This document shows positions 17,500-54,518 of a stretch of DNA of 64,000 bases, piece after piece. Numbering within the stretch: the first letter of the stretch is position 1; every line of letters begins with the position of its first letter. This DNA is from Halorubrum sodomense (GTDB lineage: Archaea; Halobacteriota; Halobacteria; Halobacteriales; Haloferacaceae), in NCBI RefSeq assembly GCF_900111935.1, contig NZ_FOYN01000003.1, forward strand, positions 367,800 to 431,799, in the 5' to 3' direction. The position numbers and the translations under genes were made by a program. The notes beneath the pieces were generated by a model. The model saw only the letters and a program-made list of their open reading frames with translations. It ran no database searches and was not told the DNA's origin.

Positions 17500-20346
17500 T
17501 CACTCCGCGAAGTCGACCCCGGTGATCTCGAATCGCGCCCCGCCCGCCTCGCTCTCGACCGCGCGCACCGACCAGCCGTGCGCGTCGGCCACCTGCTCGA
17601 CGATCCGTAACCCGAACCCGGTCCCCGACTGCGACGTCGAGTGGCCGGCGTCGAACACCGCCTCGCGGCGGTCCGGGTCGATCCCCGGCCCGTCGTCCTC
17701 GACGTAGAAGCCGTCGGGGAGCGTCCCGACCGCGACCGTCACCGACTCGCCGCCGTGCTCGACGCTGTCGTCGGGCTCCGCCCGACTGTCACCGGGCGGA
17801 GCCCGGTTGCCCGAGGGACTCCGTCCCTCGCTGCTCGTGGAACCGTGTTCCACGCTGTCGCCGGACTCCGTCCGGCTGCCAGTCGAGCCGTGTTCCACGC
17901 TGTTTCGGATCAGGTTCTCTAACAGCTGTTTGAGCCGCCCCTCGTCCGCGACGACCGTCGCGTTCGCCTCCGCGCGCAGCGTCGCCGCCTTCGTGTCGAC
18001 GGTCCGCCAGCAGGAGTCGACGACCGCCCCGAGGTCGACCGGCTCGGCGTCGGTCACGGGGTCGCCCTCGCGGGCGAGCGTGAGCAGGTCGTCGATCAGC
18101 GCGGTCATCCGGTCGTGGGCGCGCTCGACCGACTCCAGGTGGTCGCTGTCGCACTCCTCGCGGGCGAGCTGCGTCCGGCCGCGCGCGACCTCGAGCGGGT
18201 TCCTGAGGTCGTGCGACACCACGCCAGCGAACTCCTCCAACCGGTCGTTCTGCCGCTCCAGCTCCGCGGTCCGCTCGGCGAGCCGCCGGGTGCGCGCCTC
18301 GGCCTGGAACGCCGTTTCGGCCGCTGTCGCGAGGATACCGGCGAGGTACTCGTCGACGCCGTCGAACACCTCCGGCTCGGACTCCCCGATCGCGATCGTC
18401 CCGTGGTCGCCGACCGGGACGATCAGGAGGCTCCGGAGCGCCGTGTCGGCGTCGAGCGCGTCCGTCTCCCGGATGTCGTCGTACATCTCCGGTTCCCCGG
18501 ACTCGAACACCGCCCAGTTCAGGCTCCCGCCGTCGGGCGTGAACGTCTCGCGCTCCGGCAGCAGCTCCTCCGCGTGCGGCGAGACGGCCATCGGAACCAA
18601 CCCGCCGGCCGCCTCGTCGTGGATCCGGACGGTGACGATCGAGAACCCCAGCACGTCGGTGGCCGCCTCGACCGCCCGCCGGGCGATCTCCTCCCGGGAA
18701 TCCGCCCCGACGAGCGTCCGCGTGGCCCCGTGGAGCCGCTCGACGCGGCGCTCCCGTTCGATGCGGTCGAGCGCCGCCTCGAGGTGGCCGGAGAGGATCT
18801 CGGCCACGAGGACGTCGGTGTCGGTGAACTCGCGCGGCTCCGGCGAGGAGACGACGAACAGCCCGTGGTCGCCGATCGGGCGCAACACGAGACTCTCCGC
18901 CGGCGAGGACTCGTCGAGCGGCTCGTACGTCGAGAGTTCGTCGACGACGACCGACTCCTCGCCGTGAAAGGCCTCCCACGCCAGCGCCGCCCGGCTCCCT
19001 TCCGGCGCGTCCCGGTCGTAGGACGGCTGCGTCTCGAACAGCGCGGGGACCGACTGGCCGAGCGCGGCCGGTTCGAGGCTGTCCCCGTCCGCCGTTCGCA
19101 GGTGGATCCCGCTGAGCCCCGCGTCGATCAGGTCGTCGACCGCCTCGACCGCCAGTTCGGCCGCCTCCTCCGTGGTCCGGGTGTAGTTGAGCTCCCGCGT
19201 CCACTCCCGGAGCCGGGAGAGGGTCCGCTCGCGCTCCTTCCGTTCGGAGACGTCGCGCGTGGTTACCACGTACCCCTCGACGCCGTCGGCCTCGATCCGA
19301 TCGCTACCGACCGATTCGAGCCAGCGGTACCCACCGTCCGCCGTCCGGAACCGGTACTCGGCGCTCGGGGGCGTTCCGCCGGGGTCGACGCTGGCGAAGG
19401 CCGACTCGACGGCCTCGCGGTCATCGGGATGGACGTAGTCGAGCGACCGTTCGCCGAGCAGTTCCGACGGGGCGTGGCCGGTCACGCGCTCGCAGGAGGG
19501 GCTCAGGTACCGGAACCGCCAGTCCCTCGACAGCACCGCGACCACGTCGCTGGCGTGCTCGATGAACGCCCGGTGTCGGTCGCGCTCGGTCTCGTCGCGG
19601 ATCACCCCGACGAACTGCCGCTCCCCGTCGACGGCGAACTCGCCGTACGACAGGGAGACGGGGACCTCGTCGCCGTCGCGGCGGAGCGCGTTGAACCGAA
19701 CGTTCGACCAGTCGACGCCCCGCTCGCCGGTGTCGAGGTACCGCTCCATCGCCTCGCGGTGGTCGTCGCGGTGTCGCTCGGGCATCAGCGTCGTCAGCGG
19801 TTTCCCTTCCAACTCCGACGGTTCGTACCCGAGCACGGACTCGACGGCCGGGTTCGCGAACCGGATCACGCCGTCGGTGTCGATCGTGACGATCGCGTCG
19901 GACGCGCCCTCCGCGACCGCGCGGAACTGCTCGACCGCCTGCTCGGCGTCCCGCTCGGCACGCCGCTTCTCGACGGCCTCGACGATCCGGTTCGCCAGCC
20001 GCTCGTACCGCTCCGTGCCGCCGCGCTTCTGGAGGTAGTCGGTGACGCCGGCGGAGATGGCCTCGCTCGCGACCTCCTCGCTCCCGCGTCCGGTGAAGAG
20101 GACGAAGGGGAGGTCGGGGTCGCGCTCGCGGACCGACTCGAGGAACGCGAGGCCGTCCTTCCCGGGCATCTCGTAGTCTGACACGATACACTCGACCTCC
20201 CGGTCCGCGAGGACGTCGAGCCCGGCTGCGGCGTCGGCCGCGGTCTCGACCGCCAGCCGGTCCTCCTCGCGTTCGAGGAAGGAGGCGGTGACCGCGCGCA
20301 GGTCCGGGTCGTCGTCGACGAGGAGGACCGGAATGCGGTCGGACAT
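17500..20346 (-). CDS. Receiver-PAS-PAS-GAF-GAF histidine kinase with an inserted repeat block
   Basis: A 948-residue soluble signalling protein. Domains in order: receiver (1-120, phosphoacceptor Asp57 in IVSDYEMPG), PAS (about 140-255), PAS (about 258-372), GAF (about 390-535), GAF (about 540-690), HisKA with His712 in VVSHDLRNPLEV, and HATPase (N-box 810-820, G1 DDGPGID at 884-890). Having the receiver at the N-terminus is common in haloarchaea. The ATPase domain carries an insertion of about 45 residues (821-865) right after the N-box, in which the host sequence SVEHG occurs three times and the DNA is made of short perfect hairpins. It may still fold, since the insertion lies in a loop before the ATP lid. 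No transmembrane segments. Confidence 0.92.
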   Translation of the reverse strand: MSDRIPVLLVDDDPDLRAVTASFLEREEDRLAVETAADAAAGLDVLADREVECIVSDYEMPGKDGLAFLESVRERDPDLPFVLFTGRGSEEVASEAISAGVTDYLQKRGGTERYERLANRIVEAVEKRRAERDAEQAVEQFRAVAEGASDAIVTIDTDGVIRFANPAVESVLGYEPSELEGKPLTTLMPERHRDDHREAMERYLDTGERGVDWSNVRFNALRRDGDEVPVSLSYGEFAVDGERQFVGVIRDETERDRHRAFIEHASDVVAVLSRDWRFRYLSPSCERVTGHAPSELLGERSLDYVHPDDREAVESAFASVDPGGTPPSAEYRFRTADGGYRWLESVGSDRIEADGVEGYVVTTRDVSERKERERTLSRLREWTRELNYTRTTEEAAELAVEAVDDLIDAGLSGIHLRTADGDSLEPAALGQSVPALFETQPSYDRDAPEGSRAALAWEAFHGEESVVVDELSTYEPLDESSPAESLVLRPIGDHGLFVVSSPEPREFTDTDVLVAEILSGHLEAALDRIERERRVERLHGATRTLVGADSREEIARRAVEAATDVLGFSIVTVRIHDEAAGGLVPMAVSPHAEELLPERETFTPDGGSLNWAVFESGEPEMYDDIRETDALDADTALRSLLIVPVGDHGTIAIGESEPEVFDGVDEYLAGILATAAETAFQAEARTRRLAERTAELERQNDRLEEFAGVVSHDLRNPLEVARGRTQLAREECDSDHLESVERAHDRMTALIDDLLTLAREGDPVTDAEPVDLGAVVDSCWRTVDTKAATLRAEANATVVADEGRLKQLLENLIRNSVEHGSTGSRTESGDSVEHGSTSSEGRSPSGNRAPPGDSRAEPDDSVEHGGESVTVAVGTLPDGFYVEDDGPGIDPDRREAVFDAGHSTSQSGTGFGLRIVEQVADAHGWSVRAVESEAGGARFEITGVDFAE
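17767..17886 (-). repeat. In-frame block of palindromic hairpin repeats inside the kinase gene
   Basis: Four perfect short hairpins lie within 120 bases: 17771-17785 (TCGGGC-TCC-GCCCGA), 17791-17807 (ACCGGGC-GGA-GCCCGGT), 17812-17830 (CGAGGGAC-TCC-GTCCCTCG) and 17861-17875 (CCGGAC-TCC-GTCCGG). Each has a three-base TCC (or GGA) loop. Between them the host sequence encoding SVEHG is duplicated (copies at about 17753-17770, 17844-17860 and 17889-17904), as if units had been inserted with duplication of the target. The whole block keeps the reading frame. A matching hairpin pair occurs in purA at 53932-53967. Confidence 0.85.
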
Positions 20347-53120: not shown

Positions 53121-54518
53121 CTACGCCTCGAACGGGTTCGTCAGTTCGACCGTCTCCTCGCGGTCGGGGCCGACGCCGACGGCGTAGACCGGGGTGTCGA
53201 TCTCGTCGGCGACGAACTCCAGGTACTCGCGGGCCGCCTCGGGTAAGGCGTCGTAGCCCGCCTCGGCGACCGCGGCCGAGTCGAACGGCTCCCACGTGTC
53301 GAGGGTCTCGTAGACCGGCTCGCAGCGCTCCCAGCGGTCGGTGGTGGTGGGCACGGTGTCGAGCGCTTCTCCGTCCAGTTCGTAGCCAGTACACACCTTC
53401 AGCTCGTCGAGCCCGGCGAGCACGTCGACGTGGTTGACCGCCACCCCGGTGAACCCGGAGACGCGCGCGGCGTGGCGGAGCATCGGGAGGTCGAGCCAGC
53501 CGATCCGGCGCGGGCGCCCGGTGACGGTGCCGAACTCGCCGCCCCTCTCGCGGATCTCGTCGGCGAGCGCCTCCTCGTCGGCGTCGCCGTCGAGCTCGGT
53601 CGGCATCGGCCCCTCGCCCACTCGGGAGAGGTACGCCTTCACGATGCCGACGACCTCGCCGGCGCCGACGGTCGTGACGCCGACGCCCGAGCCGACCGCC
53701 GCGGCGCCGGCGGTCGGGTTCGAGGAGGTGACGAACGGGTAGTTCCCGTGGTCGACGTCGATGTGGGTACCCTGTGCGCCCTCGAAGAGGATCTCGTCGC
53801 CCGCCTCGCGGCGGCTGTGGAGGTAGTCGGAGCAGTTGACGGTCATCCCCTCGTCGGCGAGGCGCTCGCCGATCGCGGCGAACTCCTCGTGGAGCGCGTC
53901 GACGTCGAACGCCTCGGCGCGGTCGTCGCCGCCGGACTGCGTCCGGCTGCCGGGGGCGCTCTGCGCCTCGCTGCCCGTGAGGTCGATCCCGTACACGTCC
54001 TCGACGAGCGCGCGCTTCTGCGGGACGACGTACTCGAGCTTCTCGCGGAGCGCGTCGGGGTCGAGCAGGTCGGCGACCCGGATCCCGCGACGCCCGGCTT
54101 TGTCCTCGTAGGTCGGGCCGATGCCGCGGCCGGTCGTGCCGACCTCGTCGCCCGCGTCGTCGTCGGCCTTGACCTCCTCTTCGATCCCGTCCAGCACGCG
54201 GTGATACGGCATGATGACGTGGGCGCGGCGGGCGACTCGCACGTCCGGATCGAGCCCCCGTTCGCGCAGGTCGTCGATCTCGGTGAACAGCGTGTTCGGG
54301 TTGACGACGCAGCCGTTTCCGAGGACGCCGACCGTGCCTCGGACCGCGCCGCTGGGAACCAGCGAGAGCTTGTACTCCGCGCCGCCTTCGACGACGGTGT
54401 GACCGGCGTTGTCGCCGCCCTGATAACGGACTACGACGTCCGCGTCCCCTCCCCATCGGTCGACGAGCGCGCCCTTGCCCTCGTCGCCGAGCTGGGAGCC
54501 GACGATGGTGAGTGTCAT
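53121..54518 (-). CDS. purA: Adenylosuccinate synthase with an inserted hairpin-encoded loop
   Basis: A 465-residue synthase. GTP-site motif GDEGKGALVDRWG near the N-terminus (catalytic Asp and Lys in GDEGKG), IMP-binding GGDNAGHTV, and the C-terminal GVGPDREETV are all present. It makes adenylosuccinate from IMP and aspartate. At about residues 183-197 an insertion (TGSEAQSAPGSRTQSGG) interrupts a region that is shorter in other PurA proteins; its DNA consists of two short hairpins like those in the kinase at 17.8 kb. The loop lies between conserved elements, so the enzyme may remain active. Start at 54518 gives the conserved MTLTIVGSQLGDEGKG. Confidence 0.92.
   Translation of the reverse strand: MTLTIVGSQLGDEGKGALVDRWGGDADVVVRYQGGDNAGHTVVEGGAEYKLSLVPSGAVRGTVGVLGNGCVVNPNTLFTEIDDLRERGLDPDVRVARRAHVIMPYHRVLDGIEEEVKADDDAGDEVGTTGRGIGPTYEDKAGRRGIRVADLLDPDALREKLEYVVPQKRALVEDVYGIDLTGSEAQSAPGSRTQSGGDDRAEAFDVDALHEEFAAIGERLADEGMTVNCSDYLHSRREAGDEILFEGAQGTHIDVDHGNYPFVTSSNPTAGAAAVGSGVGVTTVGAGEVVGIVKAYLSRVGEGPMPTELDGDADEEALADEIRERGGEFGTVTGRPRRIGWLDLPMLRHAARVSGFTGVAVNHVDVLAGLDELKVCTGYELDGEALDTVPTTTDRWERCEPVYETLDTWEPFDSAAVAEAGYDALPEAAREYLEFVADEIDTPVYAVGVGPDREETVELTNPFEA
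53932..53967 (-). repeat. In-frame hairpin repeats inside purA
   Basis: Two short hairpins: 53932-53946 (CCGGAC-TGC-GTCCGG) and 53955-53967 (GGCGC-TCT-GCGCC), joined by a CTGCC module that also follows the hairpins in the kinase gene. Flanking sequence matches the kinase elements in order (GCTGCC after the first hairpin, CGCTGCCCGTG after the second). The reading frame and the encoded peptide (GSRTQSG against GSRTESG) are the same in both genes. Confidence 0.85.

Follow-up and report, generated by a model that had tools for sequence, protein, structure and literature searches.

Palindromic elements that code for protein have so far been known chiefly as a peculiarity of Rickettsia, apart from occasional reports in other organisms. 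The RPE of Rickettsia and the WPE of Wolbachia are palindromes found in frame in a wide range of unrelated genes, often essential ones, as well as between genes, and the encoded peptide is thought to be tolerated (PMC10969869, PMC2229807). For archaea, palindromic repeats that have become part of protein genes are on record in M. jannaschii, as far as two secondary accounts convey (PMC2996958, PMC2229807). REPs are hairpins of 20 to 40 nt tagged with GTAG or CGTC that occur as dimers, in clusters, and sometimes in genes, the CGTC class also without a known transposase; head-to-tail pairing of hairpins is reported as absent or negligible in GTAG/CGTC REPs, in a text that does not mention haloarchaea (PMC3733652). 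The PATEs of Haloquadratum are haloarchaeal, lack a transposase gene, carry palindromes near their ends, cause no target duplication, and have an IS605-type origin (PMC3119063). Finally, the palindromic amphipathic repeats called PARCEL are protein-coding palindromic DNA that can expand in tandem and has been reported absent from archaea (PMC2996958).

The present study concerns a 64,000-nucleotide stretch of Halorubrum sodomense DNA (the window, whose positions are used below). Here, a histidine kinase gene on the minus strand (17500..20346; response-regulator/receiver, PAS, GAF, HisKA, and HATPase domains by Pfam matches and translation) carries an array of six hairpin modules. The array spans 135 nt (17767..17901, minus strand), and its modules follow one another on that strand in the order A B A A B B. 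The leading A module (17878..17901; AGC GTG GAA CAC GGC TCG ACT GGC), identified from the sequence, forms an imperfect hairpin. It is followed by a B module (17857..17877; AGC CGG ACG GAG TCC GGC GAC, hairpin 17860-17876), two A modules (17833..17856; AGC GTG GAA CAC GGT TCC ACG AGC, hairpin 17836-17854; and 17809..17832; AGC GAG GGA CGG AGT CCC TCG GGC, hairpin 17812-17830), and two further B modules (17788..17808; AAC CGG GCT CCG CCC GGT GAC, hairpin 17791-17807; and 17767..17787; AGT CGG GCG GAG CCC GAC GAC, hairpin 17770-17786), all on the minus strand. These five hairpins, located between 17770 and 17876, are perfect, with stems of 7-8 bp and loops of 3 nt; all were recovered by hairpin search and, except for the A module at 17833..17856, also by the covariance model. 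The cluster stands far above chance: in 451 kb of the contig there are 16 pairs of such hairpins with a spacing of 0-9 nt, four of them in the kinase gene, whereas 20 order-4 Markov simulations gave a mean of 3 and a maximum of 9. The original prediction had placed four hairpins in the kinase and two in purA, and its positions are borne out within 1-2 bases. All four kinase hairpins are present; the fifth perfect one (17836-17854) was not listed, and the sixth module is the imperfect one. The peptides it gave, GSRTESG in the kinase and GSRTQSG in PurA, are correct by translation, and the linkers it described as matching in the two genes are present.

Comparison of the flanks of related copies revealed a standard unit of 45 nt, AGC-hairpinA-(T/G)GGC-AGC-hairpinB-GGCGAC, in which two hairpins stand in direct orientation (head-to-tail). 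Module A (24 nt) consists of AGC, a 7-8 bp hairpin, T/G, and GGC, and module B (21 nt) of AGC, a 7-bp hairpin, and GAC. The loops are of 3 nt, the tag 5′ of each hairpin is of the CAG[CT] type, and the element ends in GAC. An example of the peptide encoded by the 45-nt unit is SEAQSASGSRTQSGD, and each unit inserted in a gene gives the host protein 15 extra residues. Three- and four-hairpin forms were seen at insertion sites other than those of the kinase and purA; hence, modules can be gained one at a time or in nested form. The single kinase and purA hairpins, previously taken as the element, do represent a real family of hairpin modules, but the true unit is a hairpin pair. This two-hairpin unit (24 + 21 nt, direct orientation), the intergenic majority of copies in this genome, and the fixed site 3′ of GAC were all absent from the original prediction.

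In purA, which encodes adenylosuccinate synthetase (Pfam PF00709; 53121..54587, minus strand), the hairpin search, the covariance model, and the orthologues together define one A+B unit of 45 nt, SEAQSAPGSRTQSGG (53928..53972, minus strand). The unit is partly decayed, with an A hairpin of 5 bp (53955-53967), a B hairpin of 7 bp (53931-53947), and the terminal GAC now GGC. Empty orthologues read GLDL-DDDDRAEAF, with the nucleotide boundary at CTC GAC/GAC GAC (slashes mark insertion points). An intact 45-nt copy occupies the same purA site in another species (L061), and a second, different purA site is filled in two further species.

The comparison with orthologues lacking the insert, proposed at the outset, defined exact boundaries. 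Nine filled/empty comparisons showed an insert of exactly 45 nt immediately 3′ of GAC, or of AAC in kinases, and such differences were found in acetyl-CoA synthetase, a dihydrolipoamide-dehydrogenase-like gene, sulfite reductase, 3-isopropylmalate dehydratase, aconitase, DUF7095, purA, and the kinase. The aconitase insert starts 3′ of AAC, and the DUF7095 site holds either 45 extra nt or larger inserts made of modules. Similarly, ribosomal protein uL2 of a haloarchaeal MAG shows one clean 15-residue insert (VEFED/GDRRL) relative to PDB 1s72 chain A, which we take to be the Haloarcula marismortui protein. Although the search pattern fixed only AC, the triplet before the insert is GAC at all 32 distinct non-kinase coding sites among the matches listed. 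In the collection scan, one strand and phase is shared by 57 of the 58 copies of coding-like context among the matches listed, and the 34 coding copies among the matches listed have at least 31 distinct non-kinase upstream contexts with no common flank beyond GAC. A MITE would have terminal inverted repeats and a target-site duplication produced by a DDE transposase. At most sites, a 3-bp GAC duplication and a GAC target combined with a terminal GAC predict identical sequence; the AAC...GAC arrangement in the kinase and in aconitase speaks against duplication. On its gene tree, the acetyl-CoA synthetase insert has a scattered distribution that needs at least 4 changes, and it could be one old insertion with losses (AU p = 0.050 for a single clade). 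At the DUF7095 site (L158, L162, L080, L261-L264), hairpin variants differ and the hairpins number 2-4 by species, which suggests a hot spot of repeated turnover.

The kinase array encodes 45 amino acids, SVEHGSTGSRTESGDSVEHGSTSSEGRSPSGNRAPPGDSRAEPDD, placed directly after the catalytic N-box Asn (AAC, 17902-17904) and before the native SVEHGG. Kinase orthologues without the insert, which include the closest ones, read RNA[VIL]EHGG, and the empty AAC/GCG becomes AAC/AGC...GAC/GCG when filled. Since the A module in kinases re-supplies SVEHG directly after the N-box Asn, the N-box helix is completed by the element itself, which may be the reason why this site is so often used. In an AlphaFold model of the catalytic region (19 sequences), the fold is retained at a mean pLDDT of 80, and the insert, lying between the N-box helix and the strand that follows, is predicted as a low-confidence loop (pLDDT under 50 at residues 140-165 and 177-181). 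The model fits an insert that would behave as a tolerated loop. Two more histidine kinase genes of this genome have an insert at the same N-box position (G000 C7:614347-614438 and C8:786346-786392). A Halorubrum californiense kinase gene (L056, L312) shows at least four tandem 45-nt units, an ambiguous base, and a frame change, reflecting either an assembly collapse or a genuine frameshift from repeat instability.

In an alignment of 21 units, which were chosen partly for pairing, no sequence breaks any of the 14 base pairs, eight pairs are altered on both sides, and none of 500 shuffles matched the score. A fairer test was a scan of the whole collection with most stem letters left free, which gave 88 copies among the matches listed. 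In these copies, hairpin A shows 20 different stem sequences and is perfectly paired in 79, and for each of five A pairs, 85-87 of the 88 have complementary bases. Perfect pairing, originally described as invariable, is thus the state of most copies in this wider sample. The A module in kinases reads VEHGST; 68 of its 78 codings among the matches listed are perfectly paired and represent seven synonymous haplotypes. At the Val codon, position three and its partner are G-C in 49, C-G in 24, and other in 5. As synonymous codons shift in compensating pairs, it is the pairing, not the peptide, that persists, and the peptide alone offers no explanation. The suggestion that structure rather than sequence is conserved therefore gains from every dataset in which stem covariation was checked (21-unit alignment, free-stem scan, and kinase codings). 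Furthermore, loops giving TAG in frame occur in 0/57 coding copies versus 4/30 elsewhere (p = 0.012, among the matches listed); the contrast sharpened to p = 0.0009 after adding this genome's intergenic copies, counted by hand.

In this genome, covariance-model searches located 53 matches, of which codon statistics assign about ten to genes, namely three kinases, purA, acetyl-CoA synthetase, the dihydrolipoamide-dehydrogenase-like gene, and one gene in antisense; the others are mostly intergenic, often with longer stems, within a larger composite repeat. The only likely antisense genic copy of this genome (L122, G000 C8:612933-612979) lies in a strongly coding frame. The composite repeat around the intergenic copies is itself multi-hairpin, with recurring tracts GAGGCTGGGGAGGYGTGAGG and TGCCCCTTTGAGTCCC (G000 C7:638338, C6:71213, C9:639972, C9:291968, C8:156436, and others). 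Extending the search to relatives, as the original prediction had advised, placed the element in dozens of unrelated genes, and in many genomes, beyond the kinase and purA. With one genome sampled per species, the motif is present with at most 3 mismatches in 47 of the 53 genus genomes, while the reversed-pattern control was almost empty, and the covariance model finds matches in 208/245 genomes and 68/79 genera of Halobacteriales. Outside this order, matches are weak (E >= 9.9e-6, covariance-model E-values being rough) and confined to 5 of about 164 genomes of the phylum. One genome of the phylum outside the order (G415) has at least 20 weak model matches (best E about 1e-5), possibly an unrelated GC-rich hairpin repeat family. 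Everything among the matches listed in the whole-collection scan is from Halobacteria. The large searches scored about 25-31 candidates per genome, and copy numbers are therefore lower bounds.

Coding status was assigned mostly by codon statistics, and 18 host proteins were checked against Pfam. Hosts confirmed in this way include uL2, a class I tRNA synthetase (LeuRS, judging by its N-terminus), CobN, a phosphorylase-superfamily enzyme, a CBS-domain protein, a beta-CASP nuclease, a molybdopterin oxidoreductase, aconitase-family enzymes, NIR/SIR, an AMP-binding enzyme, and PurA; ppsA and an alkaline phosphatase family gene come in addition from annotated plasmids. Unrelated genes seldom share an identical copy. 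Low complexity or chance was ruled out by the reversed-pattern control, the Markov simulations, and the free-stem complementarity. Carriage by viruses was rejected, as the strict pattern had no match in IMG/VR, and so was a CRISPR repeat or known structured RNA, as eight loci gave no Rfam match at gathering scores.

The hairpin element works like RPE or REP and belongs to neither. Like RPE and WPE, it is a palindromic repeat inserted in frame in unrelated protein genes. Unlike RPE, which measure about 105-150 bp as one long palindrome, the haloarchaeal unit is of 45 nt with two separate short direct hairpins and a fixed GAC target; RPE-4 and RPE-6 are CGTC-tagged REP-like units, whereas the haloarchaeal tag differs. 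RPE and WPE are also bacterial, while our element, set apart by the RPE descriptions, belongs to another domain of life. The early comparison with Rickettsia therefore holds for the mode of working, but length, architecture, and the RPE-4/6 tags speak against membership. The M. jannaschii elements, likened here by description only and through the secondary accounts, are similarly archaeal palindromes in protein genes. That organism belongs to another phylum, and the model search of the haloarchaeal phylum found nothing comparable outside Halobacteriales. In contrast to REPs, the haloarchaeal element has a CAG[CT] tag instead of GTAG/CGTC, hairpins paired head-to-tail instead of single, 3-nt loops, and a GAC end; in contrast to GTAG REPs, which are RAYT/Y1-associated, it occurs in a genome with no Y1_Tnp, and 30 Y1 loci in relatives lack it. 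With PATEs, it shares the haloarchaeal host, the lack of a transposase gene, and the palindromes, but no IS605-type link emerged at the 30 Y1 loci examined. PARCEL, likewise palindromic DNA that codes for protein and can grow in tandem, differs in length and peptide, and the haloarchaeal element normally occurs as a lone in-frame insert of a housekeeping enzyme. Because length, tag, dimer orientation, or transposase link disagrees, we place the element in none of RPE/WPE, REP, PATE, and PARCEL. It is apparently a separate, undescribed family, set apart from the nearest kinds partly by their descriptions; no haloarchaeal description was found in the open-access literature, and one in a subscription journal is possible.

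The most likely reading is that these hairpin modules make up miniature mobile elements, devoid of a transposase, whose family extends across the haloarchaea. A single-stranded element would fold into its two hairpins and be recognized by structure, not stem sequence, by a putative enzyme acting in trans. Insertion would follow GAC, less often AAC, on its 3′ side, and the terminal GAC carried by the element would recreate the target; such regeneration can explain the head-to-tail tandem arrays. Since the unit is of 45 nt without stops, the frame is never shifted. With GAC read as an Asp codon, the product would be a hydrophilic 15-residue loop, presumably neutral and tolerated by acidic haloarchaeal proteins, and the other phases and strands, which are nearly absent, would presumably have been removed by selection. 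Perfect stems may be kept because new copies derive from paired sources, or because one arm serves as the template for correcting the other. The search for a mobilizing gene found none. An autonomous larger element bounded by two inverted copies 1.1 kb apart (G000 C9:639972-641172) was rejected, as no transposase-like gene was recognized by eye between them.

Could known machinery account for these copies? Hairpin ends and insertion 3′ of a short fixed target without duplication are compatible with Y1 chemistry, and the element shows such ends and inserts 3′ of such a target, with no evident duplication of it at the kinase sites. If the element were a derivative of the PATE or REP type mobilized by an IS200/IS605 Y1 (HUH) transposase, the PATEs of IS605 origin in Haloquadratum would be a precedent (PMC3119063). 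Nevertheless, Y1_Tnp (PF01797) is unmatched in this genome and in G016 and G020, all element-carrying and the latter two element-rich, and the element adjoins none of the 30 Y1 loci examined in relatives (the best match scoring 15.9 bits), which makes this origin quite improbable. Spread without dedicated mobility, by gene conversion and unequal crossing-over with stems kept by template switching between arms, seems unlikely as a general account. The 45-nt tandem arrays in kinases, the many kinase paralogues filled at the same site, and the one stem type that recurs in acetyl-CoA synthetase are what it would predict, but the diverse upstream contexts noted above, with only GAC common to the flanks, and the two purA sites filled in different species are not. 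Recombination between copies probably contributes in kinases, where many copies may have spread between paralogues.

Retention of the insert for its peptide, as an acidic linker of Ser, Gly, and Asp or a segment that regulates the kinase, and whose hairpins are a by-product of codon choice, would accord with the N-box restored by VEHGST after the split Asn, with the stem subfamily peculiar to kinase copies, and with the single phase of all coding copies but one among the matches listed. We consider it very unlikely, given the compensating codon changes, the mostly intergenic location of this genome's copies (one being antisense in a gene), the absence of the insert from the closest kinase orthologues, and a loop predicted by AlphaFold to be disordered between intact elements. 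It is scarcely conceivable that the element is removed from the mRNA, like an archaeal intron or as structured RNA, so that the protein never carries it. Strong hairpins would suit such removal, but splicing needs neither a length that is a multiple of three, nor stops avoided in coding copies only, nor one reading phase, and Rfam gave no match.

The reading of miniature mobile elements can be carried further, tentatively and at rather less than even confidence. Haloarchaea would possess a hairpin-recognizing mobility system independent of Y1, whose GAC target is the Asp codon over-used in acidic surface loops. Insertion would then be automatically in frame and usually harmless, and the system would act as a genome-wide generator of 15-residue loops, reused at the histidine-kinase N-box. 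The family explains a class of lineage-specific 15-residue haloarchaeal inserts, including those in uL2 and in the ATP-binding domain of many histidine kinases, which could otherwise pass for functional adaptations or sequencing errors. As its hosts are free-living archaea of a whole order, some of them amenable to genetics, how palindromes enter genes, how their pairing is kept up, and how essential proteins tolerate them become testable.
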